Source: Selaginella tamariscina (lineage: Eukaryota > Streptophyta > Lycopodiopsida > Selaginellales > Selaginellaceae). From it: DNA of 64,000 nucleotides. This document shows positions 13,146 through 64,000 of the stretch, piece by piece. Where the stretch lies: NCBI GenBank assembly GCA_003024785.1, contig PUQB01000022.1:752001-816000 (forward strand). Reading direction: 5' to 3'. The notes beneath the pieces were generated by a model. That model did no database searches, was not told the DNA's origin, and was given only the letters and a program-made list of their open reading frames with translations. Position 1 is the first letter of the stretch. The number at the start of each line of letters is the position of its first letter. The position numbers and the translations under genes are program-made.

Positions 13146-13240
13146 GATCTATGAAAAGAAAAAAGGAGGAAAACGGAGAAGAACCAAGAGAAAAAAAGTA
13201 ATAAAAAATTGGGGAGCTATGAAAGCGGTTACTATCAAAC

Positions 13241-14227: not shown

Positions 14228-14397
14228 ACACCTAGCTTGACGTGGAGGAAAAGGTTGGAAACATGCCTCAACCTTTGCCTTTTAGAACGTGCATTATGAC
14301 AAGACCTTCCAGGTATAGATTCGCCAATGTTAAGGGTGAGCTACCCCGAAGGTGGAACGTACCCCTATCATCTGGAAGTTAGGGTGGTGTCACGACC

Positions 14398-14952: not shown

Positions 14953-15045
14953 GTTTGATAGTAACTGCTTCATAGTTCTCCGTTTTCCAGCTACCTTTTT
15001 CTTGATTCCTTTCCTTCATTTTCCTCCTTTTTTCTTTCCTAGATC

Positions 15046-20119: not shown

Positions 20120-20130
20120 GCACCTCCTCC

Positions 20131-20412: not shown

Positions 20413-20689
20413 GGGTGTGAAACACAGGATGAAGTTTCACCGTAGGTGGTAACTCGAGTCGAAAGCTACAGGATTTACCTCCGCCACGATCATGTAAGGG
20501 CCCAATCGTTGAAAATCCAACTTAGAAGAAGGCCTGTTGGTGCGAATGTGTCGACGAAGAAGCCACACGAGATCACCAATCTTGTATGCAGGTGCTGGTT
20601 GACGGTGAGCATCAGCATGATGCTTGTACCGTTCCTGTGCCTGCTGAAGGTGAACCTGGAGATCATTCTATACCTGCCGAAGATGCTGA

Positions 20690-23100: not shown

Positions 23101-23185
23101 GAAGGAGGAGAAGGAGAAGGAGTAGGTGAAGGAGATTGAAAAACAGGAGAGTCAGACACAGGAAAGGTAGAAGAGGACGTAGGAG

Positions 23186-24310
23186 TTACTTGAAAGGCAA
23201 AAAGGTGGAAAGGAGCAGGATCAGTGGTAAGTTCATGCATGGTAGTGGTAAGAACTCGGAGAGGAGCAGGAGGAGCTGTGATTGAAAAAGAGGAAGGATC
23301 TTGGGGGGTGGAATAGAAACAGAGTAATGAAAAGAAGCAGGATTGGAAGAAACAGATGTGGATGTTGACAAGTGTACAGGATTGGAAGAATCCTGTACAG
23401 AAGTCCGTGGATGCACAGGAGTGAGGAGAGCCTGTGAATGTGCTGATGGATCAACAGGAGGTGGATCCTGTTGAGGAGGAACCTTCGACACTGATACAGG
23501 ATTGGAAGAACCCTGTACAGGACACCGCAAACTTACAGGAGTGGAGAAAGCCTGCGGATGTGCTGAGGAACTGACATGAGGTGAATCCTGTCGAGCAGGA
23601 GTCTTCAACACTGGTACAGGAACAGGCACGGTCAATCCTGTAGCTTGTACTGCCTCAGACACCAAGGATGTATCCTGCACGCAGGAAGGTACAGGGTTGA
23701 TCCTGGCTGTGGAGAGGAAAACGTGAGCGTCCTAGACCTCCAGTCGATCTGCGGATTTGCAACAACGAACCATGGCATGCCAAAAATGATGGGAGTCGAC
23801 CGAGTCTTGATCAGGTTGAAGGAAATCGAACAGTTGAATGCACCATGATTGCAAGAGAGAGGTGTGGTAGCGTGGGTAACTGCGCCAGAAGCAATCAAAC
23901 GACCATCGGCCACCTCTACAGGAATTGCATGCTTCAACTTCACCACCGGAATGCCATGCTGAGCTGCAAAAGTGTCATCCATGAAACATGCATTTGCACC
24001 AGTGTCTAACAGGGCAAACTCCTTGAGCTCTCGATTATTGAGGCGAATGTGTACAGGAAACTTGAGTGATGGAATGGTATGAGTAGCACCAATGGAGCCT
24101 GCACCTACGTCCAACTTCGCGGCTCCTAGACGAAGTGGACATTGAAGTTTTCCGACTGAACTTCAGCTTCGGCTTCACGCGCTTGAACTTCCTGGCTTTA
24201 TTAGGACATTCCGCCACCTTGTGTCCTGCTGCACCACAATACAAGCATAGGTTCTCACCCCGTCGACGTTGTTTCTCAGCAGTTGAAAGTGGGCCACGCT
24301 TGGATTGTTA
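23186..24310 (-). pseudogene. Element B protease, linker and zinc knuckle
   Basis: The frame 23632-24114 has ELKEFALLDTGANACFMDD and the IIFGMPWFVV strand of the aspartic protease. The linker 23186-23680 has the proline-rich repeats seen in A and C. The knuckle (YCGAAGHKVAECPNKARK) reads near 24180-24245. Frame changes near 23715 and 24130. Confidence 0.75.
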
Positions 24311-24399
24311 ACCTCCATAGGAACTGCTGCTCCAGAAGGTGTCGCAGGAACATGTGCTACGGCTACAGGTTGGCTGGCAGGAACTGCTGACGGAATTTT

Positions 24400-25100
24400 T
24401 CCTGACGGCCTCGAACAAACGGTTGTCGCAGCGAACGGCCTGTTGCATGATCTCCGCTAACGTTTGGGCATCCGGTACGTAAGGAGAAGGTCCTTCACGT
24501 CGTCCTCAGCCCAAAACGGAAATGTTCGATCAATGCAGTCTCGTCCCATGGAATGTTCGTGCACAATTGCTGGAATTCGGATGCATAAACGGAAGCTGGT
24601 CTGGATCCTTGTGTGAGCCTCCGTAACTTTGTGCATGCAGAACGGTACTTATCAGGATCTCCAAAGCAGGCTTCAAAGGCAGCCACGAAACCTTCAAAGT
24701 CTTCCATCAATGGGTCGTCACGCTCCAGCAAGGGAGCAACCCAAGCTCGTGGAGATCCACTTAGTAAGGATGCCAAAAGGCCAACCTTTTGTGCATCCGT
24801 CGAGTAGCGGCGTGGTTGCATGCGGATCAAGAGCCGGATCTGATTCAGGAAACCTTGGAAATCGGCACGGTTGCCACTGAACTTCTCTGGCATGCTGATC
24901 TTCGGCTCCGGAGAAAAGTTCGATGAAGAAGGAACCACCGATGCCTGAGAGAGAGCCTGCGCAGCAGCCTTGGAGGATGCATCAGCAGCTGCATGTGCCG
25001 CATGGGTGGAGCCTTGTAGATCGGTGACCACTTGGCGCAAAGTGGCCAGCTCATGAAGCAACATTTGGTGCTCGCGTTGAAAGTGCTCAAAATCAGCCAT
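24400..25100 (-). pseudogene. gag: Element B gag
   Basis: Starts at the minus-strand ATG ending at 25100 and reads 201 codons with the same coiled N terminus and capsid-like domain as A. A one-base loss near 24500 (GLRDD region) ends the frame early. The rest of the C terminus, with DAQTLAEIMQQAVRCDNRLF-like codons, can be seen in another frame to about 24410. Confidence 0.8.
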
Positions 25101-25199
25101 GATCGTATGAAAGAAAGAAAGGAGAAAAACGAAGGAAAAGAATCAAGGAAAAAAAAAGTAGCTGGGAAACGAAGAGCTATGAAAGCAGTTACATCAAAC

Positions 25200-25712
25200 T
25201 GTCAAGCCACGATCCAGGAACCAGGAAGCAAGTAGGATTCCGAGAACAGGAAGGCTTGACTCAGGAACAGGACCGAGAGCAGGACAGGAACTAGGAAAGG
25301 AACAGGACGGATCCAAGAACAAGACAGGATCCGGAGCAAGACAGGAGCAGGAGGCAAAGAGTAAGACAAGAACAAGACAAGAACAAGGAACAAGAATAAT
25401 CGTAGAATGACTGGTGTTGATTGTAACTGATTGTACAACAATTAGGTCGGAGCTTTTATGCTCACAACTCCAAGCTAATCTGGTCATGAGCCTAATCTAG
25501 TCACTAGCCAAAATTGGTCATCCTTATCCTATAGGAATATCCTGTAGGAATATCCTGCGGGAATATCCTGCGGGAATATCCTGTGAGAATATCCTGCGGG
25601 AATATCCTGTGGCATATCTGTGGGAATATCCTGCGGGCCGAAATCCTGTATCGCATATCCTGTAGGCTGAATCCTGTATGTCGTATCCTGTATCCTGTAT
25701 CGGGTCGTGACA
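25200..25712 (-). repeat. 5' LTR of element B
   Basis: 513 bp, TG..CA ends, partner of 19617-20119. ATAGG follows directly. Confidence 0.92.
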
Positions 25713-26091
25713 ATAGGATCGTGGCGAAGGTAATCCTGTAGCTTTCCAACTCGAGTTACCATCCACGGTGAAACTTCATCCTGTGTTTCACACCTCTTTG
25801 TTGGAGCCGTATCATCCTTCTTCTCTTCCCGGTCGTGTTTCTTCTCCTCCCCTCTCCTGTGGTCATTGACACGGAACCTGAGTACGAAGTCGCAGCCATC
25901 CTTGACTCTCGTCTTCATCGTCACCAACTCCAATACTTGGTGGATTGGAAAGGGTACCTGCCTACTGATCGCACTTGGGAACCTGCATCCAACTTACTCC
26001 ATGCTTCTTCCAAGGTTGCTGCCTTCCATCGGCATTATCCTGCTAAACCAGGTCCCAAGACTCGTGGAACTCGTCTTTAGAGAGGAGGTGC
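25713..26091 (+). pseudogene. Element A chromodomain end, after the B insertion
   Basis: After the second ATAGG the A polyprotein resumes with IVAKV..-type codons, then [16 protein letters not shown] sequence, and at 25835-26080 the chromodomain [20 protein letters not shown] and YLVDWKGYLPTDRTWEPAS. It ends TRL-stop about 12 bases before the 3' LTR. The polypurine tract is probably the 'agagaggaggtgc' just upstream of 26092. Confidence 0.8.
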
Positions 26092-26689
26092 TGTCACGAC
26101 CTGATACAGAATACAGGATTCCGGATACAGGACATGGGTTGCAGGACTTTCCTACAGGATATTCCTACCAGGATTCCGGACACAGGATTCGGTTGCAGGA
26201 TATTCCTACAGGATATGTCACAGGATATGCCTAGAGGATAAGGGACATGTGGACTCATCTTAGCCTCTGCATGCATGCAATCACTTTTGCATGCATGCAA
26301 CCACTTTTGCATGCATGCCTAGATTAGCTCTTGGAGTTGTGAGCATAAAAGCTCCGACCTAATTGTTGTACAATCAGTTACTATCACACCAGTCTTACTA
26401 TGATCAATTTCGTCTTGTCTTGTTCTCGTCTTGTTTTCCTGTCTCGCTCCTGTTTCTGTCCTGTTCCTGTCTCGCTCCTGTTTCCTGTCCTGCCCCTGGA
26501 TCCTATCCTGCTCCGGGATCCTGTCCTGTTCCTGTCTTGCTCCCGGATCCTATCCTGATCCTGTCTTACTCTTAGATCCGTCCTGTTCCTATTTCCAGTT
26601 CTTGTCCTGCTCTCGGTCCTGTTCCTAAGTCAGGCCTTCTTGTCCTTGGAATCCTGTTCCCTTCCTGGTTCCTGGATCGTGGCTTGACA
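26092..26689 (+). repeat. 3' LTR of element A
   Basis: 598 bp. It differs from the 5' LTR (14398-14952) mainly by indels, for example one more RY-type 'gcatgcatgcaaccactttt' unit near 26287 and an extra CCTGT repeat near 26440. GGTGG follows. Confidence 0.9.
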
Positions 26690-27215
26690 GGTGGCACAAT
26701 AGAGGGTTGTACCTTAACAACACAAGTTAAAGCTTGCACCGGCAAAAAAGCAACGAACTCAATCATGAACCCAGGAGCTCTCTTACATGTACTACTTAAT
26801 ATATGTGACAAAGCCCCCCCCCTGTTTTCTTGTTTACATAAGTGGGCTAGCATGGAATTTCATTCCCATAGAGAATATACTTGGTGAGTTAATTAATGAC
26901 CCATTAACCCCTAAACCCTAACATGTCCAAACCTAAGGGTATTTCTAAATATATTCAGCATGCCGAACTCACAAGAACTAACCATTAACCCAACCGGGAC
27001 ATGGAAAACTAGGGTAAGAGTTTTCTAGAAGGTAAGTTCTAGCTTCGCCTAGAGTTTCCTATAAATACCTAATGACACCAGCTGAACCATCACCAGATAC
27101 CCAAGTGTATTAAGCGGGCCTATTTCCTACTACATCTAGAGTTTATTAATATAGTTTAGTAGGTAACAATAATCAACGTCCAAAGTTAAGAGGAGTCATA
27201 GTAAAAACTATGGCA

Positions 27216-30038: not shown

Positions 30039-30278
30039 ATGAACATTGTAATTAAAATAGGAATGATACATGAAAATGGGAATATAAAAAAATTCTTTAA
30101 TTAATATTATATATTAATTATTAATATTTTAAACATGCATTTTAAAAATATTCTTTCTTTAAATATATATTATTCTAAAAATTATTTCTTATATTAAAAA
30201 ATGTTAATTAACTAATTAAAATTGTTAATTATTAAGAAAATGGGATTATAGACATTCCCATTTTAGTACAACGTTTAT
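30039..30278 (-). mobile_element. MITE 1, deletion derivative of transposon T
   Basis: 240 bp, flanked by GTTT on both sides (30035-30038 and 30279-30282). Its left about 50 bases match the right end of transposon T (shared phrase 'tgaaaatgggaatata'), and its right about 100 bases match the left end of T (shared pattern 'tataatcccattttctta' against 'tatagtcccatttcctaa'). Ends read ATGAACATTGTAATTAAAAT and, inverted, ATAAACGTTGTACTAAAAT. It codes for nothing and would move only with a transposase supplied in trans. Confidence 0.8.
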
Positions 30279-35711: not shown

Positions 35712-35949
35712 CTCGTAGGAAAGTTACAATTAAAGTGGGAATGTTTATAGTCCATTTTCTTAATAATTAACAATTTTAATTATTTAATTAGCATTTTTTA
35801 ATATAAAATAATAATTTTTAAATAATATATGTTTAAAGAAAGAATATTCTTTAAAATGTATGTTTAAAATATTAATAATTAATATGTAAATATAGATTTT
35901 TTTATATTTCCATTTTCATGTATCATTCCCATTTAGTTATAACGTTCAT
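35712..35949 (+). mobile_element. MITE 2, deletion derivative of transposon T
   Basis: About 238 bp in the same orientation as T. The left about 100 bases match T's left end (GTGGGAATGTTTATAGTCC.. against ATGGGCATGGCTATAGTCCC..). The right about 60 bases match T's right end (CCATTTTCATGTATCATTCC against CCATTTTCACGTATCATGCC). AAAG on both sides (35708-35711 and 35950-35953) may be the 4-base TSD, but then the left end has about 5 extra bases, so the exact left boundary is uncertain. Confidence 0.7.
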
Positions 35950-47240: not shown

Positions 47241-47427
47241 TATAAGACTAGTCAGGATAGAGTGTTGCCTGAGAAAAACCCATTCGGGTCTGAGCATGAG
47301 GACATTTCCGTAGAGGAAATATAACTGTCAAGAAAATATTTACATTCCGGATTGTGATGAGCCGGTTAGGTCACCCTAGGTCGACATGCATCGAAACAAC
47401 CAAGAACCTAATCAAGACAATAAAATC

Positions 47428-47902
47428 TGTCAAGCCACAATCCAGGAACTAGGAAGAAAACAAAGATTCTAAGAATAGGAAGGCTTGACTCAGAAGCAAG
47501 GATAGGAACTAGGAACAGGAACAGGACGAATCCAGAGCAAGACAGGATCAGGATAGGATCCAGGAGCAAAGACAGGATCAGGATAGGATCCAGGAGCAAG
47601 ACAGGAAAGCGCAGGACAAGATCCAGGAACAAGACAGAACAAGACAGGATCCGGGGACAGACAGAAGCAGGACAGGAAACAGGAGGAGACAAGAGCAGGA
47701 CAGGAAACAAGACAAAACAAGACAAGACGAGATTGATCGTAGTAAGACTGTGTTAATAGTAACTGATTGTACAACAATTAGGTCGGAGCTTTTATGCTCA
47801 CAACTCCAAGAGCTAATCTAGGCATGAGTGTTAAAAGTGGTTGCATGCATGCAAAGTGACTGCATGCATGCAAAGGCTAAGATGAGTCCACATGTCCCTT
47901 AT
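47428..47902 (-). mobile_element. Element F 3' LTR, part cut off by transposon T
   Basis: Begins TGTCAAGCCACAATCC and follows the reverse A/B/C LTR up to '..cacatgtcccttat', where T is inserted. The rest of the LTR lies at 62401-62550. In uninterrupted copies (element A, 14531-14546 and 26229-26244) this point reads, on the reverse strand, 'cccttatcctctaggc'. Confidence 0.88.
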
Positions 47903-47930
47903 ATGCAAGGTTGTAACTAAAATGGGCATG
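47903..47930 (+). repeat. Left terminal inverted repeat of T
   Basis: Begins ATGCAAGGTTGTAACT and ends AAAATGGGCATG. It pairs with 62374-62400 (inverted: ATGCACATTGTAACT, then AAAGTGGGCATG). Confidence 0.8.
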
Positions 47931-48412
47931 GCTATAGTCCCATTTCCTAATAATTAGCAATTTTAGCTATTTAATTAGCATTTTTCTAATATTAAAGGAA
48001 TATTCTTTAGAATATATGATTGAAAAGAGAATATTCTTTAGAATATTCTATTTTGTATTCTACCCTTTAATAAATTATAGCATTCATTGAACAAAAATTA
48101 ATAACATTATAAAGTAGAATGTATTAAATTATATATATTGCCTAATAACAATTAAGGAAGAGCATAAGAGGTACATTATATAAATATTGATGTTGTTATT
48201 AAAATATTAATATTTAAAATATAACATTATTAATTAAAAATTTGTAGTAGATAAATATATATAAAATCCTTATAATAATATAGTCAATCTTCCATATCAT
48301 TTTTTAAAATTTATATATAGTTAAGTATACAATTTGGTACTATTATTAAAGAGTTTATTAATTTATGAATATAAATATATGATATTTTATAATTTTGTAA
48401 TTGCTTTAAGCT
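47931..48412. other. Left subterminal AT-rich DNA of T
   Basis: The first about 100 bases are shared with both MITEs, and after that it is AT-rich without coding. GAATATTCTTTAGAATAT-type inverted motifs occur at about 47999-48047. Confidence 0.6.
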
Positions 48413-51400
48413 TCAGAAAACATACTTCCCTGCTGCAGTTTTGTTAATCGTGACTTTATCAACGCTTCTTGACATCCACCCATATCGAATGGATTTAACA
48501 TTTATAAAACATGCTGGGTCTTTTTGATTGGGAGACCATGTTTTCTCTAGGCATCCATTATATCTTTCGCCTCCTTCTCGTGTCGCCTTTTTTGTGGTTT
48601 GAACCATGCAACCTTAACAATACTATTTTTTGTGATTACTTCAGGTGTGTCGATAATTTGACCCATCCAAATAGGCTGATTATATGACGCATCTGGAGTA
48701 ATGAGAACCATCATTAGTTTTTGAAGATCCTTGCAGCAATCAAAGTATGCTTTAGGTTTTTGGTTCCTTTGTCCAACAAAATGTGGGGTTTGCACTTCCA
48801 CATCACTACTGGCTTCTATGTCGTCTGTGCTCAGTGATGTCATTTCAATCTCCTCTCGCCACCTTGTTTTAGGCCAAAAAGGGTGTTGCAATTCTGTACT
48901 TGTGACAGTAGGCCCTTCCAACTCTCGAACAACAGTCTCCCAATAGTTGACCACATGCTTATATAGTTCTGAGTAACCAGTTGCCTTATCAGAATTCTTT
49001 GCATCGATTTTTGAACCCATGCCACATATTTTTTGATGCCATCAATAATAACCTCTTGTTCCTTGAGCTGGGCACTCAATGGAATAGGGTCTGGTTGTCC
49101 TTCTGGGAGAAGTGGCTTTCCATCCTCTCCACTTTTGAAGAGCATTAACCCTCTTTCGGTAACCACTCATGCTCTGATGGCCGTAACTTGTACTGCATAA
49201 TAGGTATACCATCTCGTATGGAGAAAAAAATTGTAGCGGCACAAGGTGACCAACTAAAGAATCACTCCCTTCTTTTATATACTCCTTGAGAAATTTTTTG
49301 AAGTCTGGCACCTCAGTCACAAGCAAAGCACAACTTTTTTTGGAGATGCAATTTTCAAAAAGATTCATCATATGCGGTAAGGTAAGTGCACTTGTCCTTT
49401 TTGTAGAGTTGGAGACCTTGCTGAAGAACGCATCAATATCTTCATGAGTGTGACCAACCATAAGGAAACTGAGCGTGATTGTTTCAAACACACCTTTGGC
49501 AACAAGCATTGACAAGTATGCTAGCACATATCTAGAAAATAAAAGTAAGTATGAGCTTGAGAAACCCTTAAGTAAAATGATTTACCTATTTTTGTTCTCG
49601 CCTGCACAATTATCCATCTGTAAAAGCAAATGACGAGGAAGCTTATTTGATGTTGAGGACACATGTACACTATTTGAGCTAGATCCCTCCACTGAACCTG
49701 AACTCTCAACAGGGCCATTTGTTTTTTGTGCAGGTTGCTGACAATGCCTCTCATATTCCCAAGTAGCCTCAAGTGCAGATGTGTTCATGAGAGCATTATG
49801 TAAAGGTTGAAGGTGTTGTTTCTTCACTTTGAGATCACTGATAGGACTTGTCTGTGAGTGGGCTTCAAGGTTTCTGAAACACATGGCTAACGACCCAATA
49901 GTGAAATTGGAGTCGCTAGACCAATGTGGAAGTGAAAAGTGTCCATATGACTCACAACCGTGTCCATGTGTTAGCACACACTGTCAATGAAATCGGAAGT
50001 TTCATGACATTTCCAAGGCACTTTGGTGTTGCAAAGAGCTTTGGAATGCTGGTCTTTGAATGATCCATCTTGTCATGGATCAAGCACAGGTACTCTGATG
50101 GGCGTGACAACAGAAAGCATGCGGTGTGCATAGTACTGAGACCGGCAAGTTTGTTGTGCAATCATGTGGGCCTCCATCTTCCTTTGAATGGTAGTGATCT
50201 CCACCAAGGTTTTTGCACAAGCCTCTGCAGCCTTCAATGATGTACAAGTGTCACACTTAGAAAAGCTAGAGTGTTTTGCAATCTCCACATCCTTAAAATG
50301 AGTATTCCATATGTTGTTGAAGGTACCAGTGCAGATTGCTTGGAGCCCCATCAAACTGAGGCACTTGTTCACATGTTCACACAGTTTCAATTGAGTGTAG
50401 ATTGAAGGTAAAACCTTGAGATTTTCCCTGACCCCTGCATTTGTGGTTCGGCATTTGTGAGGCATCCTGTCTGCATTTGCTTCCACAAAAGCCTTGAGTA
50501 TCTCTATGGCTGCCATGATGTGAGAGCGGGTTTTGACCAAGCAGTGTTCCCATGAACTGAGGTTCGCGCTCCATCTAGCCACTCATCCCTCCGACGGTAG
50601 AACGTGGTCTTTGGGATCCCGTATATACTGTACCAAGCTTTGAAGCAGATGGCCACCTTATTAAATACCATGGATGTACTCTGATAACCTGTGTCCGAGG
50701 CCATTCCATCAATACACCCAGTTAGTGCAGCATATACAAACTCATGCCTTTGCTTTTGGGTGAGCATACGAAAGACATGTCTACATTGGGTAATTTCATT
50801 CCGGTCTGCCATCTGACAACACTTCTTCTTGCAACAGTCAATCGTGGAAATGCTCGTAACACTTTCGGAAGATGTAGGATCCATCTTTACCCTCTTGCTG
50901 AAACTTGCAGGGGAAGATCTACAACCCATGAATCGCCTTTTTCTTACAATAGGACCAATGCAAGGAACCTCTTCAAATATGAGTTGTTCTTCCGGGTTGT
51001 TATTATTGAAATCCAACCCAGAATATGTTGAACCATCTTGCCGTCTTAATTCAGATGTTCGCCACCTCACGAGGGATCCAGGATACAATGTGCCATTAGG
51101 TGAAACCTCTGTCACAACTACACCCACGAAGTCGGACCCTAGTTTCTCTTCTGACACTGCTTCCATTGGATTTATAGCTGTGATGATGCCTCTTCCGACT
51201 TCAATCTCACGAAGAAAGAGAATCACCTCATCCATCACAGCAGGCAAGCCATCATCTGGTAAACTCGTGCTACTATTTGTTTGTGACTCTGCATATTCTG
51301 TGTCAGCCTTGACTTCATCCAAATTCCACAATACAGGAGAACCCTCCTCAAATTCCATTCCCAGAACCTCAACATGCTTGTAAATGGTGTTCACCCATAC

Positions 51401-51523
51401 GTACACACAAGATCCTTGGGCAATATTGTGACATGATGCATTATTATCTCGAACTTCCACAGTTCCAGTGCCAACTATCTCGTTGTTCCGAAGAAGACAT
51501 ACTTTATCTCCAGTATTAAACAT
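48413..51523 (-). pseudogene. T gene 1: DDE-transposase-like protein (DUF7869-like), frameshifted
   Basis: About 1,000 codons, probably starting MFNTGDKVCLLR at 51523 just after a splice acceptor. In order: an N-terminal domain (NEIVGTGTVE.., VYVWVNTIYKHVEV), a nuclear-looking basic linker, a helical region (AWYSIYGIPKTTFYRRRDEW, VHGN), a CX2C motif (FSKCDTC), then three acidic motifs: LIHDKMDHSK (about 50080), LLLQMDNCAGENKNR (about 49600) and FLMVGHTHEDIDAFFSK (about 49450). This spacing fits an RNase H-fold DDE transposase. A 54-base intron (49532-49585) is clear. One-base frameshifts near 50535, 50100, 49985, 49155, 49010 and 48545 break it. The role is inferred to be T's transposase. Confidence 0.75.
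49532..49585 (-). other. 54-base intron in T gene 1
   Basis: On the minus strand GTAAATC..TTTTCTAG lies between ..GAGAACAAAAATAG and ATATGTGCTAGC. Removal joins GENKNR to YVLAYL exactly within the conserved catalytic motif. Confidence 0.85.
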
Positions 51524-51529
51524 ATTGTC

Positions 51530-52490
51530 CTGCACATAAATAATTGTATTATTTATGATATCTGTTTATGCAATATTTCTAAGAAATCTGAATTACGGTT
51601 ACTTAATAATATGCATATGCAATAATACATAATTATGTTTAGAGATAATATCTCATGTTTGATTAATACAACTGATGGGCGGGATTAATCCCGCCCACGA
51701 ATCCCTCCGACGAGGAACGGTCGGCGGGATTAATCCCGCCGCCGACTCAACCCCTTCGGAGAGAGTCGGCGGGATTAATCCCGCCTTGGACTCCCTCCGA
51801 CAAGGAAGAGCCGGCGGGATTAATCCCGCCCCTCTCCTCCTCGGGGGAGTCCGGCGGGATTAATCCCGCCGACTCTCTCCGACGAGGAAGAGTCGGCGGG
51901 ATTAATCCCGCCGCCGCTCCCCTTCGGAGAGAGTCGGCGGGATTAATCCCGCCCACAATTCTTACGACGGGGAATGTGCGGGATTAAACCCGCACATAAC
52001 TCTCTCCAAAACTATGATTTCAAAGAGATCTCGGGATAAATCCTGTCCCCAAATCTTAAAACAGGGAAGTGGTGGCGAGATTAATCCCGCCACCCCTTCC
52101 CTGCCTCCTAAAATGGTTGGCGGGATTAATCCCGCCGACAACTCTTTCTAATAAATTCTGGTAACTCTTCATCAGTTGAGAAGGTTATCGGCGGGATTAA
52201 TCCCGCCACTCTTTTTCAGTGGCGGAGAAGCATTGCCCGAGAGATGGTGGCGGGATTAATCCCGCCACCTCTTCGAAGAGGCAAAAAGAAATGGCCGGAT
52301 TAATCCCGCCGCCCCGGTTAACCTAGAATATTAAGTTAAAAGGATATTTAAACGGGATAAATCCCTAACGGAATATATTATAATCCTAATGCATTCCTAA
52401 ACCCCTAAATTGTAATTTTAAGAGAGAATGTAAGAGAGTGAATCTTTATAAGTATTTTTAAATTTGTTTATAATACTTACTTGTAAACAG
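51530..52490 (-). other. Putative first intron of T gene 1, containing palindrome array 1
   Basis: The acceptor TTTATGTGCAG ends at 51530, five bases before the proposed ATG on the minus strand. A consensus donor (ACAA then GTAAGT) begins at 52490. The upstream stretch 52491-52665 has the T-rich, non-AT-only look of a leader exon. Only RNA evidence could confirm it. Confidence 0.4.
51675..52312. repeat. Palindrome array 1 (about 14 copies)
   Basis: Copies of the perfect 18-bp palindrome GGCGGGATTAATCCCGCC start near 51678, 51724, 51769, 51813, 51853, 51895, 51937, 52119, 52190 and 52246, with variants near 51977, 52031, 52073 and 52290. The first seven are 40-46 bp apart. Spacers differ but share CTCTCCGACGAGGAAGAG-like text. 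Both strands read GGINPA in one frame, which is a by-product of the palindrome. The array lies about 150 bases upstream of the gene 1 coding start. Confidence 0.93.
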
Positions 52491-54480
52491 CACTGAAGGC
52501 GCCGTGCTTTCCTATAAAGAATAGCACCCAATTTAATCTCGCTCCTGAGATGATCACTATGAAGAAAAAAGAAGATCTAAAGAGTGAAAAATACAGAAAT
52601 GAAGAAACCCTTGCCGGAGAAAGAACCAGATCTGAATTTGAGTGGGAAATTAAATGCATTTTCAAATTTACATGTCAGACCGACAATACATATGTCAGAA
52701 ATTCAAATTTTTTAAAAAGAACAGAAAATAAAATTTAAGATGAGTTGACACAAATATCCGACACTCTGACATATATACTCTCCAGTTCCAATGAGTATTT
52801 TAAAATTGCATTTAATGTTATTCAAGTGATTCAAGCTGTTTAATATTACGAAATTTTAGACTATATTCTACATTCTTAGTATTCAAGTATATTTATATTA
52901 TATATATATATATAATATATACTTATACAATAAATAAATTGATATATTATTATGTATCATTTAAAATATATTCATAGTCTGTTTATTATTATTATTTTCT
53001 TAATTACTCGAGTATTTAGTTTTCATTTCCTAGTATCAATGGGATATTCTTTAATATTTTATTAATATTTGAAGAATATTCTAATATTAAACCTGATTAT
53101 CATAATTAAATTAGTCTTGTTCTTAATTATTGCAGTAATTATTCTACATTTGTATATATTAATGGGATTTTCTCAATTAATTTGTTATTATTTCAAGAAT
53201 ATTCATGTGTTAAACCTTATTATCAATATTAAATTAATACACACTATGAACATATTTTAAATTATACATAATAATACATCATTTTATCTAATATATAGTC
53301 ATATATAGTTTTAATAATATATATATTAATATCATTTCCTTAATTACTTGAGTAATTAATCTTCTTTATATTAATGGGATATTCTTTATTTTTTCTTATT
53401 ATTCCAAGAATATTCCAATATTAAACATGATTATGATAATTAATTTAGTTAATTATTTGAGTACTTAATTTACATTTGTATATATTAATGGGATTTTCTC
53501 AATTAATTTCTTATTATTTCAAGAATATTTCATGTTAAACCTTTTTATCAATATTAAATTAATATATATTATTAAAACTATATATGGCTATATATTAGAT
53601 AAAATCATATATTATTATGTATAATTTAAAATATGTTCCTAGTGTGTTTATTAATATTATTTTCTTAATTATTCGATGTTTGTTTTGCACACATATATAA
53701 ACACAATCATAAATTTACACACGCATTACAAGAACTTACAAAAACACATATGCACACACATGCACAACCCTAAACCAAACTGAAGAAATAGGTTGCTTCT
53801 TTATTGAAAACATCATGTTCAACGCATGTATGATATATGTACTCAATCTGTGTGACTGTATGTAACACATTGAATTTACATGTGTAATATTTATATTAAG
53901 CTTGTTGGGAGCAAACCCTAAACCCTAAACCCTAAACCCTAATATGTAACACAATGAATTTACTCATGTAATATGTATGTATGTCTGTGTGTATACACGT
54001 GTGCATGTATATATGTGTACTCTGTATGTATATATGTGTACTTTCTGTCTTCTCTCATACATACACACCATGCATGATCCATGTTAATATGTACTGTCTC
54101 TCTTCTCTCAAACATATACACCATGCATGATCTATAATATGTACTCGGTCTCTCTAATATTATGTACTAATATGTGTGTATGTCTGTGTGTATACACGTG
54201 TGTATGTATATATTATGTGTATTAATATATGCAATGTGTATGTATGTATTGATACACATGAAACTTTAACACTCTCATGGACACACACATGTTAAATCCC
54301 TGCATGATTTATATTTTTGAGGTGTATGTGATACACCCACGCACACGCACGCGCTAATAATATAATGAAAGAATATTCGTTTAGGGCGAATCTATATTTT
54401 ATTCTTTTTAGGGTTTAAGTATATTCTCAGAAGGAATATTCTATTAGGGTTAATATATATTTTAATTCCTTTAGGGTTTA
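52321..54480. other. AT-rich core of T between divergent genes
   Basis: Repeated phrases such as 'ttaatgggatattcttta' and 'attaatgggattttctcaatt' recur at 53035, 53158, 53370 and 53485, pointing to an old tandem duplication of about 330-400 bp. No convincing coding region. If genes 1 and 2 have the leader exons proposed here, this is their shared upstream region. Confidence 0.5.
53913..53942 (+). repeat. Interstitial plant telomere-type repeat
   Basis: Four tandem copies of AAACCCT, the plant telomere unit. The same core (AACCCTAAA, a telo-box) is known in promoters of plant growth genes. Its position upstream of T gene 2 fits either reading. Confidence 0.8.
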
Positions 54481-54545
54481 GGTATATTCTTAGGGTTTCA
54501 AGAGGCGGCGGCTGTGAAATCGGCGGCGGCGGCTGTGCACACAGG
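54480..54545 (+). other. Possible leader exon of T gene 2
   Basis: A short GC-rich island (CGG repeats, 'ggcggcggctgtg') in AT-rich DNA ends with CACACAG followed by GTGAGA, a strong donor. An acceptor (TTATTTTGCAG) lies at 57514-57524, 40 bases before the ATG of gene 2. The intron between would hold the simple repeats and array 2. Confidence 0.35.
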
Positions 54546-54552
54546 TGAGATC

Positions 54553-54554
<2 letters not shown>

Positions 54555-54583
<29 letters not shown>

Positions 54584-54847
54584 ATATGTATAGGAGTGTG
54601 CGTATAAATTTATTTATTAGTTTTATCTCTCGCACACACACGCACACTCCTGTGTATGTATATGTGTGTGTGGGTGTGTGTTTGTTTATCTGTATGATTT
54701 TATTTGTTTCGCTCACACACGCATACACACGATATACATATACACATATATATATACCTATATACATATATACATACATATATTATGTGTACCAGTATCT
54801 GTAAATTTTTTTTATTGATCTATCTCTCCCACACACACGCACACTGC

Positions 54848-54898
<51 letters not shown>

Positions 54899-54963
54899 TA
54901 TGTGTACCAGTATCTGTAAATTTTTTTTTATTGATCTATCTCTCCCACACACACGCGCACTGC

Positions 54964-55023
<60 letters not shown>

Positions 55024-55730
55024 ATCAATGCATATTAACAAATAGTATACAACACTAGTTTATATATATGCTTATATATTCATATGGGTTATATATCTAT
55101 ATACACACATATATATATGTGTGTGTTTATCTGTATAATTTTATTTATTTATTAGTTTTATCTCTCGCACACACACGCACACTCCTGTGTATGTATATGT
55201 GTGTGTGTGTGTGTTTGTTTATCTGTATGATTTTATTTGTTTCGCTCACACACGCATACACACAATATACATATACACATATATATATACCTATATACAT
55301 ATATACATACATACAACACTAGTTTATATATATGCTTATATATTCACAGACTCTCTCTCTTTCTCTATAGATTATATATCTATATACACACATATATAGT
55401 GTGTGTTTATCTGTATAATTTTATTTATTTATTAGTTTTATCTTTCGCACACACACGCACACTCCTGTGTATATATATGTGTGTGTGTGTGTTTGTTTAT
55501 CTGTATGATTTTATTTGTTTCGCTCACACGCATACACACGATATACATATACACACATATATATACCTATGTACACACATATATTAGGTGTACCAGTACT
55601 GTATAATTTTATTTATTTATCTATCTCTTGCACACACACGTACACTCCTATACATACATACATACATACATATATATATATTATACACACACACATATAT
55701 ATATGTGTGTGTTTTTATCTCGCTAAGCCC
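54555..55730. repeat. TG/CA and TA simple repeats in longer tandem units
   Basis: (CA)n tracts at 54851-54884 and 54968-55000, plus (GT)n and (TA)n runs. A larger unit containing 'tttgtttatctgtatgatttta' and 'cgctcacacacgcatacaca' recurs near 54680, 55213 and 55493, so the block has expanded by duplication of units of about 280-530 bp. Confidence 0.85.
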
Positions 55731-55734
55731 CTCG

Positions 55735-57232
55735 AGCGGCGGGATTAATCCCGCCGAGGCCCTTCACGCAGGCTATGGGCGGCGGGATTAATCCCGCCGC
55801 TCTACGACAAACCGAAGAGCGGCGGGATTCATCCCGCCGCCCATAACCTGCGTGAGGGGCCTCGGCGGCGGGATTAATCCCGCCGCTCACCATGCCCTGC
55901 GCGGAATGCGGCGGGATTTATCTCGCCGGCAATGGCCTGTGTGAAGGTTCTAATGGGCGGGATTAATCCCGCCGGATTCCGCGCAGGGCATTTACAGGGA
56001 TGGGCGGCGGGATTAATCCCGCCGCCGAGGCCCCTCACGCAGGCCATGGGCGGCGGGATTAATCCCGCCGCTCTTCGGTTTGTCGTAGAGCGGCGGGATT
56101 AATCCCGCCGCCCAGGGAATTCACGCAGGACATGAACGGCGGGATTAATCCGGCCCCACGCTCATGCCCTTCGCGGAGGGCGGCGGGATTAATCCCGCCG
56201 CTCAGGCACTTCCGCAGGATATAAGCGGCGGGATTAATCCCGCCCCCCATCCCTGTTCAAAAATGCCGCAGCCAATATATATGTGTGAGCGCATGATTTA
56301 CGAGAGGGCGGCGGGATTAGCCTCCGAACCTTCATTACCCGGTGGCGAGATTAATCTCCGAACCTTCATTACCCCATTGGTATGTTGAATCAATCCCGAC
56401 TAACTCTGTCTGAGACGGAGAAGGTTTACAAAATACCAATGGAGGGAACTGAGAAGGGTGGTGGGATTAATTTCACCATCCCTTACATGGTGGGCGGGAT
56501 TAATCCCGCCGCGTACGCATGCCCTGCGCGGAATCGGGCGGGATTTATCCCGCCGCCATTGGCCTGCCTGAAGGGCCTAGGCGGCGGGATTAATCCCGCA
56601 AGATTTCGCACAGGGCATTGGCGTTCGGCGGGATTAATCCCGCCGACTAAGGCCCGAGTGAAGGGCCTGGGAGGCGGGATTAATCCCGCCGGACGCCAAT
56701 TCCCTCGGAATCGGGCGGGATTAATCCCGCCGCCATTGGCCTGTCTGAAGTGCCTAGGCGGCGGGATTAATCCCGCCCGATTCCGCGAAGGAATTGGCGT
56801 CCGGCGGGATTAATCCCGCCGCATAGGGACCGAGTGAAGGCCCTGGGCGGCGGGATTAATCCCGCCGAGTCTTCAATGCCTGTTGGAGGAATGAATCCCG
56901 CCACCCTTCCTTTGTTTTCTCCATTGGTGAGTCGGACCAATCCCAAACGTTTCTGTCTGAGACGTAGAAGGTTTTCAACATACCAATGGAGAGAATTGGG
57001 AAGGTGGGAAATTCATTTAACCATCACTTACATGGTGGGCGAGATTAATCCCGCCTCCTTTCTGGAGTCACTGAAGGGGTGTGAGAAATAAATCCTGCCC
57101 AGTTCTCTCTGAGACCGAGAAGGGTGGCAAGATTAATTCCGCACTCCCGTTCAAGGCCTCCAGAAAGGTGGCGAGATTAATCCCGCCCACTCTTTCAGGA
57201 GGCATTGAAGGGGTGGCGAGATTAATTTTATG
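55735..57232. repeat. Palindrome array 2 (about 28 copies)
   Basis: The same 18-bp palindrome as array 1, with about 20 near-perfect copies (for example 55738, 55781, 55864, 56004, 56050, 56091, 56180, 56494, 56626, 56715, 56804, 56850) and decayed ones (56308, 56343, 56457, 57039, 57125, 57168, 57211). Spacing is mostly 41-49 bp. Spacers recur in both orientations, e.g. CTCTACGACAAACCGAAGAG at 55800-55819 and its exact reverse complement at 56071-56090. The array ends about 330 bp before the gene 2 ATG. Confidence 0.93.
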
Positions 57233-57334
57233 TGAATATATATGTGTATTAGTATATATAAGTTGCATATCTCATTTTATTTACTTTTATCATCTTATCA
57301 TAATATTTCGAGTAAAAGCTAGGAATCTATGTAA

Positions 57335-57421
57335 AACTGTCCAGAGCTCACATTTGTGGTGGTTCTAAAACGAAATGTTATCTTTCTTTTGCACTAACAC
57401 AAATGTGAGCTTCGGACAGTT
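57335..57421 (+). other. Imperfect 24-bp inverted repeat upstream of T gene 2
   Basis: Arms at 57335-57358 (AACTGTCC..GCTCACATTTGTG) and 57398-57421 match at 22 of 24 positions around a 39-base loop. As RNA it would form a stable hairpin. It may lie in the proposed first intron. Function unknown. Confidence 0.7.
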
Positions 57422-57563
57422 AATTACGTCTACTTCTCTCTGTGTATTATTTTTGTATATTCGGGTTTATACAAGTGTGTGTGCGTTTTTATATAATTTA
57501 TATTTATAGTGTATTATTTTGCAGAAGGACGATTTGATCAAACAAGGAGATCGAGTCATTAGT

Positions 57564-60500
57564 ATGGAGTCGTCGTCAAATTCTGGGTAAGAATTAAAAT
57601 AAAATCTGTTATACTCGGATACTTGAACTAATCATTTTTGTATTCAGATGTGGAATTGAAGTGACATTAAAGACAAGAGCAGGAGAAGAGATGGGCAGGG
57701 GGATTCTGGAATCAACTTGGCCATATTTTAAGATAAATGGGAAGCGCATTGGAGCAACCATGGTTGCTGTCAAATTAACCTCTGTCACATCTCATGGACA
57801 AGCAAAACAATGGAAAGTAGATTCGCTAGTCAAGCACCCGAAAGCAGGCTGCGAACCCAGATTGGACGATGCTCGACAGATATGCCTTGTTCCATCCAAT
57901 GTCACGTTCTCGGATCCAGAGGTCGTCAGTTACAACATTAATCTCGGGTGGTTTTGTCGACTTGTGGATAATGACGTTCACGTGTTCACTAATGATGTTG
58001 ACCTTGGAGTTCTTCTTCAACTCAACGAAAGCCCATCTATGGAGGGGATCCATCTGGATGTCTACTTCGAAGATCTTCAGACTCATCGAGTAGGTGTATT
58101 GTCAGGAGATATTGCTTCACAATACAGAAAATCAGCAAGTGGAGCAATCTTCCCTCTTCACATTGAAGAAGAACACAGCGACATCATAAGGAGATTGAGA
58201 GGGTGGCTCGGTCTCAGGTTCTCTACAGATCACGTTCAATTTGCTTAGGAACTTCGGGAGCTGGAAGAGTGTGCCGAGAACACTAGAACAGCTGCAGTCG
58301 GGGATCACACATGTTGATTCGGATCGCAAAAGAAAATCATCAATCGTTTTGTCAGCTGCACCTGTGGCATCTCATGCTGCAATAAGTCACAAGGAAATGA
58401 TGTTGGATGATAAGATTTATCCTTGTAGGGTTAAATATTGCAGCGTCAACCCAAACTTCAATTACAGGCCACTCAACCAGGAACGTGTAGCTGAGCTCAT
58501 GGAGAAGATGAAGGACGACAATTCTTATACCGTTCCACATAATGCTGTTTTGTGTCCATACTATGAAAGAAGAAAGGGTGCTGACAAAGTCTGGATCACA
58601 ACACCAGAACAACTCATGAAGATTCAGACGGAGAATAAAAGATCTATCAAGTACTACATCATTAGTGGCCAGCACACAATAACGGCAGCCCAACGACTTC
58701 TCGATGAACACAACAAAGGAACGATGGCAACAAAACTTTCCGAGCATACCCGTGAGAAGCTGACAAAAAGATCGGCGTTTTTAGCTAAGCCGAATCTCAC
58801 AATCGAGCAGTACCATAAGTTATCGGCGGAATGGGACGCTGCCGACACCAACCACTACAACAGCAAAATATGGGAGAAGTTTAAACACACGCGAGCCGTG
58901 TGGGAATCTCTTCAGCGACCACAAAGAGCTACCGCAGGGAATACACAATCTGCGGAATACCGGGTAAGCAAATTGTTTGGGCGGGATTTATCTCGCCGGT
59001 ATATTAATCTGTCTTTTTCCTCAGAGAGTTGAAGAAATTGCAGCAGTTGATTTTGCCCAGGTGGGCGGGAAGGAAACATCATTTCTGATGATGTTGATTT
59101 CTTGCCCCGAAGATAGGATCTTTGCCAAATGGTTGGGGATTATGGAATCCTTTTCAAAAGGAACACTGAAGAAGAAGCAGACAAGTGAAGGGGAGCCCTC
59201 AGAAAAGTCTGCAAAGAAACCCAGTAAGACGCCGAAGGCTAAGTCTGTTCAATCTACAAAGGATGTAGACAACGATTTCAAGCTCACATGGTTGAAGCCT
59301 TTAAATGGAACAACGATGGAGGAGATGGAAGTCTTGGCTGATTTGGTGATCGATGGCAAACTACAAATTAATAACAGCAGCCCAACCTCTCCTTTTCATC
59401 TCAAGGCAATGGAGTTGAAGACGGTCAGGCATTTCAAGGAGTGGTTGGGAATACACTGCCACAAACTGGGTTGGACCTCGACTTCAACATATGAAGAGGT
59501 TAGCAAATATTTGCATGTGACGAACGATGATATGCTTGTCGAATGGGTGAACCAATCGGAAGATCTAGGCAAGAATCTATTGCACGCCAACGCCAAAAAG
59601 GAGAACATTGGGATGACGCCTTCTCTTATGGCAGTCCTTCAGCAGCGGAGAACCGAATTGAACCTTATAAAGGAGGATGCTACGAATCACGACAAGCCCT
59701 ACAGATGTTTGTTGTTAGATTCGGAGACTTTATGGGGTAACATCACTGCTTGTAGGAAACCGTTTCAATTGTTCGTGATGGATCGGCGGGTGTCAAAAAA
59801 TCTTTCGACAGATAGGGCACTAGAGGATCTGGTGGAGAAACTTAGCCGTGCAAGCATATACATAGAAGGTATTTATTATTGAATTCATGCTTGCGCTCTT
59901 CACTGATACCTACTTTTTCAGGTATTTATTTCTTGATTCTTGCTCATGTCACCGATACTTTTGCCTTCGCCTTCGCCAAGAAGAATAGACATCGTTGGAC
60001 AGGATTTTATATGAACGATGCTAATCCCAAGTGCATTGATACTGTTGTTCACTTGGTTGTTAGGAATGCGCCAAACAATTTCAAGCTTCCAAATGACTGG
60101 CCAGGCATCTGTTTGCACTCCAACGGCCCTGAACCTCCATCCGATACACCGATAGGTATGAGTGACGTATTCGGCAATGTACGTTATCCAAACATTACAA
60201 GTCAAGCGGCACGGAGCATCGTCAACTTGATCAGGGGTCCTCACAGTGATGCGTGGGTTTTTGACTACTGCACTAGGGGGTCCGTCTTGAAGGAGTGTTA
60301 CCTTCGGCATACATGTGTGTTTGCCGTTGAGAAGGATAAGACCATGGTTGAGGACCTGAACAAGTGGATAGATTGGGTCTCAACTGAGTACCCCAACGAA
60401 TCCATAAAGGCGTATTTGAGAAAGTTCCCTCCAGATAAGTGCGATAGCTCTGAAGGTGAATCTGGTTCAATCTCGGAGTCTGAGAACGAACATCAATCAG

Positions 60501-60655
60501 ATATTAGACCGGAAGTTATCTCGAGGAGTACAGAACATTCGCACACTCCAGGACCCATGGAAACATCAATAGAAGATGCAGAAGATCTTGAACCATCTCA
60601 CAAGCGGCTTAGACCTTCTTCGCCTCATCAGAAGGTAATAGCGAAGAAGAATTGA
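57564..60655 (+). pseudogene. T gene 2: ParB-like and methyltransferase-like fusion protein
   Basis: Starts MESSSNSG at 57564. Introns with good borders are at 57587-57647, 58964-59024 and 59879-59921, giving about 975 codons. The first domain (EMGRGILEST, FKINGKRIGATMVAVKLTSV) resembles the N terminus of T gene 1. At about 58400-58700, NYRPLNQERVAELMEKM and YYIISGQHTITAAQRLLDEH follow the ParB/sulfiredoxin-fold pattern, with T in place of the usual R of GxxR. Next is a Lys/Ser-rich linker (59150-59260) and a region ending DAWVFDYCTRGSVLKEC..VFAVEKD (about 60248-60340), like the AdoMet-binding motif of amino-methyltransferases but with no clear catalytic NPPY/DPPY. The C terminus is acidic, then KR-rich. 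A TAG at 58246 and a frame change before 58310 break this copy. Confidence 0.65.
58964..59024 (+). other. Gene 2 intron carrying one palindrome copy
   Basis: A 61-base intron GTAAGC..TTTTTCCTCAG joins ..SAEYR to RVEEIAAV. At 58979-58998 it contains GGCGGGATTTATCTCGCC, a two-mismatch copy of the array palindrome, making up about a third of the intron. Confidence 0.8.
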
Positions 60656-60938
60656 TAATGAATTGATAGAGTGATGAATAGTTGTAAATGAGTGTAACAT
60701 AAGGCATTTTTGTATATTTCTTTTATATTTGTACAGAAAATAAATTCTCAAGGATTAATGAAGCTTTTAGTTCAAACATGGGTCACACATTAACAAGGTA
60801 AATAATATACCTTGATAATTTTAAGGTCAGCTAATTATCATTTTGCAGATGTAATGAAATAATTGAGAACATGGATTTTCAGCATTGCCATGAGGTAAGA
60901 GAGGGGTTTGGCGACAATTTCTTGTGCCACATGTCAGA

Positions 60939-62112
60939 ATGACAGAGTTCATGCAGGAAATGGATAATAATGCAGCTCAAAACATCGTTACCATGGGGGC
61001 CACTTCAGTTTTTGCATCATCATTTTTATTGGCTTCAGTTCCGAAATCAATTTCTTCAGCGCATGCAATATCTGAATCTTGTAAGGATGATGTACAATTA
61101 AATGATGAAGGGATAGGCAACGAATAGTGGCAACGGATAAATGTGAAAGGGAGCAAACAAGTGATTTGCAAAGTATTCAAGAGGCAACGCTATCTCATGT
61201 TACTCATGGCCATATTGTGTTGTTGGATGTCAATGGTGTTCTGCTTCATCGACAAAGGCCCAGGATAGAAAAACAGAAATCAAACAAGGAGATTTCATTC
61301 CTTGTCATGGTAAATTTCGATATGATATTATTTTTCGTCCAGGGTTGGATCGTCTCTTTCAAAAGCTTAAGGAGATGGGTGCGCTTGTGGGGATTTGGTC
61401 ATGCATGCAGATTCATAACTTAACACCGCTGTTGAGTTTACTTAAGAAACATTGTAGTGTTGCAGAAGAGGTGATTCGTAAAGATTGGATTTTTGACCAG
61501 CGAATGTGTTATAAACCTCTCGAATTTCACAATATAAGAAAGGAAAGCAAGCCATACTTCTTCAAGAATGAAAGAATAATTGGGACTCATGGGGAGATCA
61601 GTCGCTTAAGGATAACGAAGAATGCACATATCTTAGTAGTAGACGACTCTCCTCAGAAGGCTATGCTCAACCAAAACATTGCTTGTATTCATCCAATCAC
61701 TTTCGATCCATATTCTGATACCGATATCATGGATGAGCTAGTGAACTACTTGGATACGTGCCTCAGAAAGAAGAATCTCGAAAATTTTTGTGAGCAGTAT
61801 CCACCGTATCATACATTTCCTGAAGCTTTTCTTTCTCGTGATATTGAATTTTATAAAATGAAGGATAGCAACCGGGCGCTTTATAATATTATTCTTAAGG
61901 AACGTCAGTTTTTAGATGAGCCTTTATGCAGACCTTCTCTTATCACATCTTATGTATTAACAAGGATGGCAACTCCCAATTGCATTCGTGAGAGTGTTAA
62001 GTGGTGGCAACAACATCAAGATATTGACCAAAATGATTTGATTAATCCGGAGAGTGATGATTTAGACAAAATGAAAAGATTTCTTTGTATGATAGAAAGA
62101 AAGTATTTATAA
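60939..62112 (+). pseudogene. T gene 3: FCP1/NIF-type (HAD) phosphatase-like protein
   Basis: About 390 codons in three frames. After a splice acceptor (CATGTCAG at 60930-60937) the reading starts MTEFMQEMDNNAAQN. The phosphatase domain begins HIVLLDVNGVLLHR (about 61210), where the catalytic DxDxT/V motif reads DVNGV, so the second Asp is Asn. FRPGLDRLFQKLKEMG and LVGIWSCM (about 61335-61400) and the metal-site HILVVDDSPQKAML (about 61627) follow. The C-terminal 110 residues are unrecognised. FCP1/NIF enzymes remove phosphate from serine, often on RNA polymerase II tails. Loss of the general-acid Asp may reduce activity. Frameshifts near 61122 and 61300. Upstream, GTAAAT..GCAG and GTAAGA..TCAG pairs suggest two leader introns (60799-60937). 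Confidence 0.7.
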
Positions 62113-62373
62113 AAAATTAACATGTTGATAAGAAAATGATTTCATTTGTAATTATGTTTGATAGTATTTCTTCATTATTGTAAACTATTTTTAGAATAAT
62201 ATGAATATTCTAAGATATTTTAGGAATATTCCTTACTAAGTAAGGTTATTGAAGGATTAATTAATTAATTAATTAATATTTAAGGCTTAATTACATATTA
62301 ATTAAATGATTAATTAATAATTAAAACTTAAGTATTAATTAGTAATTTATTTTATATTCCCATTTTCACGTAT
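62113..62373. other. Right subterminal AT-rich DNA of T
   Basis: Non-coding, with a (TTAA)n run near 62255. The last about 50 bases are shared with the MITEs. Confidence 0.6.
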
Positions 62374-62400
62374 CATGCCCACTTTAGTTACAATGTGCAT
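62374..62400 (-). repeat. Right terminal inverted repeat of T
   Basis: Inverted partner of 47903-47930. TTAT follows at 62401-62404. Confidence 0.8.
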
Positions 62401-62550
62401 TTATCCTTTAGGCATATCCTGTGGCATATCCTGTAGGAATATCCTGCAACCGTATCCTATGTCCGGAATCCTGGTAGGAATATCCTGTAGGAAAGTCCTG
62501 CAACCCGTATCCTGTATCCGGAATTCTGTATCTTGTATCGGGTTATGACA
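62401..62550 (-). repeat. Element F 3' LTR, remainder
   Basis: Resumes with TTATCCTTTAGGCATATCC, contains 13-bp AATATCCTGTAGG-like units and ends GTTATGACA at 62550, next to the F internal region. Confidence 0.88.
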
Positions 62551-64000
62551 ACACCTCCTCTCTAAAGACGAGTTCCACAAGTCTTGGGACCTGGTTTAGC
62601 AGGATAATGCCGATGGAAAGTAGCAACCTTGGAAGAAGTATGGAGTAAGTTGGATGCAGGTTCCCAAGTGCGATTAGTAGGCAAATAACCTTTCTAATCC
62701 ACCAAGTATTGGAGTTGGTGGCGATGAAGACGAGAATCAAGGATGGCTGCAACTTCGTACTCAGGTTCAGTGTTAATGACCACAGGAGGGGGAGGAGAAG
62801 AAACACGACCGGGAAGAGAAGAAGGATGATACAGCTCTAACAAGGAGGTGTGAAAACACAGGATGAAGTTTCATCATAGATGGTAACTCGAGTCGGAAAG
62901 CTACAGGATTTACCTCCACCACAATCCTGTAAGGGCCCAATCGTTGAAAAATCTAACTTAAAAGAAGGCATGTTGGTGCGAATGTGTCGACGAAAAAGCC
63001 ACACGAGATCACCAATCTTATATACAGGTGCTGGCTGACGGTGAGCATTAGCATGATGCTTGTATCGTTCTGTGCCTGCTGAAGATGAACCTGGAGATCA
63101 TCCTGTACCTAACCAGATGCTGGAGACGATCCTGTACTACAAGAGTGGAAAGAAGGAGAAGCAGGAGGAGCAAAGTCAAAACGTGGATGGTGGCCTGTAA
63201 AGCAAAGAAAGGTGTCTGTCCTGTAGATGCGTGAACGGAGTTGTTGTAGGCAAACTCCGCCATTGGAAGAAGGTCCAACCAGTTGTCCTGCTGGTAACTG
63301 ATGAAGCAACGAAAATACTGTTCCAAGATCTGAATTGTGCATTCGGACTGCCCATCAGTTTGCAGATGATATCTTGAAGAAAGATCCGCTTTAACCTATA
63401 GACTCAGAAGACTCTCGCCAAAACTTGTACATGAATTGTGGACCTCGATCGAAAACAATGCTTCTCAAGAAGACCATGATGTCGAACACTTCACGGATCA
63501 CCAATTCAGTAGTTGTCTGACCTGTAGCTGTCTTGTTGCAGGGTAGGAAATGAGCTTGCTTAGTGAAACGGTCAACCACCATAAGAACTGCATCGAATCC
63601 ACGAGAAGGAGGAAGATCTGTGAGGAAATCCATAGAAATGGATCTCCAAGGATCAGAAGGAGCAGGAAGAGGACGAAGAAGACCAAAGGGTGCATGATGA
63701 GGCATCTCGACCTGTTACAAGTGTCACAACTCTGTACAAACCTTTCCACAAACCTCACAACCCAGGCCACCAATAGTTGCAAGTCATCAACTCCACTGTC
63801 TTGGCCACAACAAAATGTCCTGTAGCCGAGGTATCATGACAATCCTGTACCACACGAGTCCTGGAAACCAATAGGAACGTACAGGAGACCTTCCGGTACA
63901 GGAGTCCATCCTGTATAGTGAACAACTTGTAGTCTGAACGGAAACTGGAGGAAAAGGAACTTGCCATGTCAGGATGAATGTGTGAGATCACATTCTTTGC
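62551..64000 (-). pseudogene. Element F chromodomain and integrase, running off the window
   Basis: Reverse relics collinear with element B: chromodomain (about 62570-62830, broken), integrase C-terminal part (WLDLLPMAEFAYNNS, about 63260), core (SMDFLTDLPPSRGFDAV, about 63620; TDLPP region intact, the YHPQTDGQSE stretch damaged near 63370) and zinc region (about 63755-63850). At least six frameshifts. The rest of F lies beyond 64000, so its TSD cannot be checked. Confidence 0.8.

Follow-up and report, generated by a model that had tools for sequence, protein, structure and literature searches.

We analyzed a 64,000-nucleotide window of Selaginella tamariscina contig PUQB01000022.1, within which all copy and empty-site comparisons were made. 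At 47903..62400 of this window lies a 14,498-bp insert that interrupts the long terminal repeat (LTR) of a Gypsy element and is delimited by comparison with the empty sites in two sister LTRs. Between imperfect inverted ends it carries a broken gene of the DUF7869 family, an open middle gene and a phosphatase-like gene with a disrupted frame, together with arrays of an 18-base palindrome, and we read it as most likely a giant cut-and-paste DNA transposon. The whole element, the LTR parts and the internal repeats are given without strand; the genes, the inverted ends, the target duplications and the short copies are given with theirs.

Insertion site, inverted ends and short relatives

The left part of the interrupted LTR (47424..47902) was delimited by the extent of similarity to sister copies, and the right part was followed over 62405..62560, where the limit is that of the joined query used and not the true end of the LTR. 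On the left, the flank ...ATGTCCCTTAT is followed by ATGCAAGGTTGTAACTAAAATGGGCATG from position 47903, the LTR part ending with CCCTTAT at 47902. On the right, ...CATGCCCACTTTAGTTACAATGTGCAT ends at 62400 and is followed by TTATCCTTTAGG, the LTR resuming with TTATCC at 62401. When the joined flanks were compared with the window, two sister LTRs read through the join, one at 26360-26082 (minus strand; 92% identity over 282 columns) and the other at 14642-14383 (minus strand; 84% identity over 285 columns). Both carry an uninterrupted CCCTTATCCTCTAGG at the insertion point, and TTAT is therefore an exact 4-base target site duplication (TSD), with its copies at 47899..47902 and 62401..62404 on the plus strand. 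A third LTR match spanning the join (9781-10031; 70% over 286 columns) was more diverged, and the empty-site calls rest on the other two. These results confirmed the boundaries of the 14.5-kb insert to the base, in agreement with an earlier note on this DNA, which had described the interrupted LTR, the empty sister LTRs and a 4-base TSD. At 9000-26700 and 62402-64000 the window contains several Gypsy copies that are related to one another but differ in LTR length, and the interrupted LTR belongs to them.

Alignment of the ends delimited a left terminal inverted repeat of 28 bases (47903..47930, plus strand; ATGCAAGGTTGTAACTAAAATGGGCATG) and a right one of 27 bases (62374..62400, minus strand; ATGCACATTGTAACTAAAGTGGGCATG when reversed). 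The repeats are imperfect: with one gap allowed, a count by eye gave 24 identities in 27 aligned positions, and the ungapped register has 21 in 28. Among 1,279,460 positions of letter-shuffled window, none matched more than 20 of the left 27 bases, and a single position reached that number. The matching inverted ends of 27-28 bases reported earlier were thus recovered.

When the element itself was masked, its terminal sequences (142 bases on the left, 88 on the right) matched two further places in the window, 30275-30039 (minus strand) and 35720-35949 (plus strand), with E values from 7e-27 to 4e-11. Alignment and inspection of the flanks delimited two short copies, each with both element ends: copy A of 240 bp (30039..30278, minus strand; blastn identities of 80% in 142 columns and 83% in 88) and copy B of 234 bp (35716..35949, plus strand; blastn identities of 80% in 140 columns and 78% in 88). 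GTTT is duplicated on both sides of copy A, and no matching 4-base flanks were found for copy B on alignment of its ends; the chance probability of a 4-base flank match at the present base composition is 0.0045. The target preference is known here from two sites only, TTAT and GTTT. The short copies are relatives with common ends, as expected of a cut-and-paste family. The earlier note had also anticipated other loci with both ends, and the window yielded these two short copies and no second long one. At the left edge of the window, positions 15-102 match the left subterminal region (69%, E 0.005), and positions 777-583 on the minus strand match the transposase (33.8% over 65 residues, E 0.002); by this similarity, the two stretches (15-102 and 583-777) may be a degraded further relative of the element.

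Genes and palindrome arrays of the element

The gene at 48413..51523 on the minus strand was delimited by its reading frames and by tblastn with homologs along the gene. Pfam recognized PF25273 on two of its pieces (E 1.4e-26; 93.7 and 41.8 bits against a curated cut-off of 26), bearing out the DUF7869 label that it had been given. The same frames and tblastn comparisons showed that the reading frame shifts at about six places, and a 54-base GT...AG gap after NKN reads as an intron. The acidic motifs IHDKMD, LQMDN and GHTHEDID are all legible. Because the predicted structure of a DUF7869 homolog suggests an RNase H-like integrase/transposase core, the gene is most likely a DDE/DDD transposase. 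An alignment profile of DUF7869 matched no solved structure (best E 0.75), no fold in BFVD was matched at E ≤0.001, and none of 31 pattern matches in viral contigs was confirmed as DUF7869.

At the other end of the element, a piece of a NIF/FCP1-like phosphatase gene occupies 61109..62112 on the plus strand in two frames. The open reading frame at 61165-62112 matched PF03031 in Pfam (E 1.5e-9; 38.2 bits against a curated cut-off of 21.8), which agrees with the phosphatase cargo proposed earlier. This frame includes the motif VVDDS, and the preceding motif LDVNG sits in a different frame (61109-61423); the frame of the phosphatase-like gene is therefore broken. Where phosphatases of this type usually have DxD, this gene has N in place of the second acidic residue. 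Since both the transposase and the phosphatase-like genes are broken, the present copy is probably non-autonomous today.

The middle gene (57564..60655, plus strand) encodes 961 residues plus a stop codon in an exon model that is our own prediction (57564-57586, 57648-58217, 58249-58963, 59025-59868 and 59922-60655). Its four gaps of 61, 31, 61 and 53 bases are every one GT...AG, and the frame is otherwise unbroken. The 31-base gap at 58218-58248, which restores the frame, is shorter than usual plant introns and could be an insertion or, if it is an intron, a very short one. Homolog searches found none below the limit among 7994 candidates for the whole protein (words taken from the first 500 residues) and 305 candidates for residues 255-462. 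Pfam gave no match to the whole protein or to the exon frames, and PHROGs and NCBIfam, searched with three pieces lacking the N-terminal exons, gave only weak matches (0.04 or worse). No relative of the protein was found in phage records, nor of a 188-residue piece of it in viral contigs, and two pieces compared with solved structures gave nothing credible (best E 0.98).

The stretch KIYPCRVKYCSVNPNFNYRPLNQERVAELMEKM...IKYYIISGQHTITAAQRLL of the middle protein has what we take to be the motif order of a ParB-type domain. The motif IISGQHTITAAQRL was aligned by hhalign to the IIAGHGRL-AA-KL consensus of 35 viral-contig ParB-methyltransferases, which had been kept for length from 44 proteins with both motifs (80 loci fetched). 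The score was 24.0 with a probability of 3%. Of 800 shuffles, five scored at least 24.0 and not one was placed on precisely the same profile columns; in an earlier, smaller run of 60 shuffles the top score was 22.4, and the 800-shuffle run is the one counted. In hmmsearch, the same 35-protein profile gave −1.7 bits to the middle protein, −0.8 to the reversed sequence and 7.3 to the best of 2000 shuffles. Predicted without an alignment, the ParB-like piece reached a pLDDT (predicted local distance difference test) of 44. A ParB domain in this protein is thus a hint at the level of motifs, and a lead. The earlier claim of a ParB-like gene proved stronger than these results, which hold one motif, IISGQHTITAAQRL, and no profile match.

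The arrays named in the earlier note are present. Allowing up to four mismatches, the 18-base palindrome GGCGGGATTAATCCCGCC occurs at 40 sites in the window, 26 of them perfect, and all 40 lie within the element; 20 letter-shuffled windows contained a mean of 0.0 sites. The spacing is mostly 40-46 bases. Array 1 (51678..52310; 13 sites) precedes the start codon of the transposase, beginning 155 bp upstream of it. Array 2 (55738..57187; 26 sites) precedes the middle gene and ends about 380 bp before it, and the third intron of that gene contains a single copy with two mismatches (58980..58997). Two exact copies of GGCGGGATTAATCCCGCC 15-35 bases apart were found in neither viral contigs (0) nor prokaryote contigs (0). 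The spacers between the palindromes (51678-56885) tend toward inverted repeats, so the arrays could fold into rows of hairpins. Arm pairing was measured in those spacers that are 15-60 bases long, 31 in all, which involve 35 of the 40 sites. The arms pair at 3.77 of 8 positions, as against 2.77 when the halves were re-paired (2000 rounds, maximum 3.68), which we take as an observation only. Between the arrays, 53700-55720 is a long stretch of CA/TG/TATA microsatellite-like repeats with repeated blocks of about 186 bases, and 4.3 perfect copies of AAACCCT, the plant-type telomere unit, lie at 53913..53942. By themselves, this unit and the liverwort homologs of the DUF7869 gene would suggest a land plant or a closely related alga as the source of the DNA.

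Comparison with Sola and alternative explanations

Sola elements have been described as having a DDD transposase, 4-base duplications and inverted ends of 11-1124 bases; most are 2-9 kb and some exceed 15 kb, and they are found in the moss Physcomitrella and seem uncommon in flowering plants (PMC10741241). They are more abundant in Azolla than in Salvinia (PMC6786969), Sola1 is listed for Physcomitrella with Capsicum as a further host (PMC9033089), and Sola2 elements of amoebae show AT-rich 4-base duplications and an 888-residue transposase (PMC3627910). In the brown alga Ectocarpus, the 21.5-kb Sola1-1_Ec32 has a second gene on the strand opposite its transposase, and the 1104-residue product combines ParB-like and N4/N6 DNA methyltransferase domains; in the giant families of this alga the transposase gene is frequently decayed (PMC12477816). 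ParB-fold proteins fused to N6/N4 methyltransferases are also frequent in phages (PMC12704722).

The 4-base TSD, the inverted ends of 28 and 27 bases and the length of 14,498 bp all fall within the described range of Sola (PMC10741241, PMC3627910, PMC9033089, PMC6786969). As in Sola1-1_Ec32, a giant DNA transposon carries an extra gene on the strand opposite the transposase whose product has about 1,000 residues (PMC12477816), the middle gene being on the plus strand and the transposase on the minus strand, as in the Sola1 ParB-methyltransferase layout. The decay of the transposase is likewise shared with the giant families of that alga, in which it is frequent (PMC12477816). Unlike Sola1-1_Ec32, only a ParB-like motif is seen here and a methyltransferase is not detectable; conversely, palindrome arrays and a phosphatase-like gene were not encountered in the available portion of the account of that element (PMC12477816). 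The motif IISGQHTITAAQRL lines up with IIAGHGRL-AA--L of the 35 viral-contig proteins, as in phage ParB-methyltransferase fusions, but the middle protein shows no significant overall similarity to such fusions (PMC12704722). At the level of published descriptions (DDD transposase, 4-base TSD, size, moss and fern hosts; PMC10741241, PMC6786969), the Sola-like label of the earlier note fits. Its remark that such an element was "not one I know" was too strong, given the published 21.5-kb Sola1 with a ParB-like and DNA methyltransferase gene (PMC12477816); an account of the present element itself was not found in the literature searched. The element also resembles the KDZ group (Kyakuja, Dileera, Zisupton) as a DNA transposon with accessory genes. 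Membership in that group was ruled out by the TSD, which is 4 bases here and 7 in Kyakuja or 8 in Zisupton-1_PGr (PMC12730594).

Taken as a whole, the explanation that we favor, with moderate confidence, is a giant cut-and-paste, Sola-like DNA transposon inserted in a Gypsy LTR. A cut-and-paste transposon with a DDE-type gene and other genes, as proposed earlier, is supported by the TSD, the empty sites, the inverted ends, the short relatives and the homolog's predicted integrase/transposase-like core. Three points weigh against the fuller reading. Membership in Sola is unproven, since the likeness is one of published descriptions. No profile library (Pfam, PHROGs, NCBIfam) detects ParB in the middle gene. 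For a methyltransferase in the C-terminal part of its product, hhalign gave 20.6 against a top of 24.8 in 60 shuffles, with no profile match; a methyltransferase is supported by no result here, and the suggestion of either domain comes mainly from analogy with the published Sola1 layout.

DUF7869 could instead mark an unnamed DDE/DDD superfamily distinct from Sola1-3, with the 4-base duplication shared by chance. The literature searched contained no mention of DUF7869, the likeness to Sola is one of descriptions, and the organisms with named DUF7869 homologs are a liverwort, molluscs, a coral and sea urchins. However, size, duplication length, transposase length and acidic residues agree with the Sola descriptions, and the accessory gene opposite the transposase agrees with the Ectocarpus Sola1 (PMC12477816), so that we regard a separate superfamily as unlikely. 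A composite, in which a shorter DUF7869 transposon took up unrelated genes and a palindromic satellite, with no transposition role for the middle gene and arrays, strikes us as doubtful. It is favored by the lack of any middle gene relative in our searches, the broken phosphatase-like frame, and the AT-rich and microsatellite stretches (~52300-55700) that separate the modules; but the same palindrome precedes each of the two main genes and recurs within an intron of the middle gene, and the middle gene is open over five exons while the transposase has decayed, suggesting that the middle gene was kept in use. Finally, the frame breaks in the transposase and phosphatase-like genes could be assembly errors in an intact element, single-base frame changes being a common error type. 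This is improbable in our view, because the 961-residue middle gene is unbroken apart from its GT...AG gaps, whereas the transposase shifts frame about six times.

Proposed mechanism and significance

In the explanation by a giant Sola-like transposon, the element would have entered the LTR of an older Gypsy element. The insertion structure and the common ends are seen directly; the integrase/transposase-like core comes from a predicted model of a homolog. The DUF7869 DDE/DDD transposase would bind the 27-28 base ends, excise the element and join it to a 4-base AT-rich target, and the short copies would be derivatives mobilized by the same kind of enzyme. Because its own transposase frame is broken, the present copy would be mobile only if an intact relative supplied the enzyme. 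The element would belong with, or beside, the giant Sola elements, and the middle gene would most likely be the counterpart of the Sola1 ParB-methyltransferase accessory gene. Its product might bind to the two palindrome arrays of the element, each of which precedes one of the main genes, and would in this way label or protect the transposon DNA. As for the phosphatase-like gene, it was most likely captured from a host and is now decaying.

A further reading takes the middle gene and the palindromes as an element-encoded parS-like system, in which a ParB-like clamp would load at the 18-base palindromes, spread over the transposon and control both main promoters, serving copy maintenance or silencing. 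We hold this to be very doubtful; if true, it would mean a ParB-type clamp acting on a nuclear transposon of a plant-like eukaryote.

Giant DNA transposons of this kind are already known in outline, and the transposase sequence family, the arrays and the phosphatase-like gene make the present element a variant worth recording. Its boundaries are fixed to the base by empty sites, and it suggests that DUF7869, which Pfam lists as a domain of unknown function, is a DDE/DDD transposase core. In addition, its arrays of 18-base palindromes adjoin an accessory gene, and the role proposed for the published counterparts of that gene is to bind and modify the transposon that encodes them.

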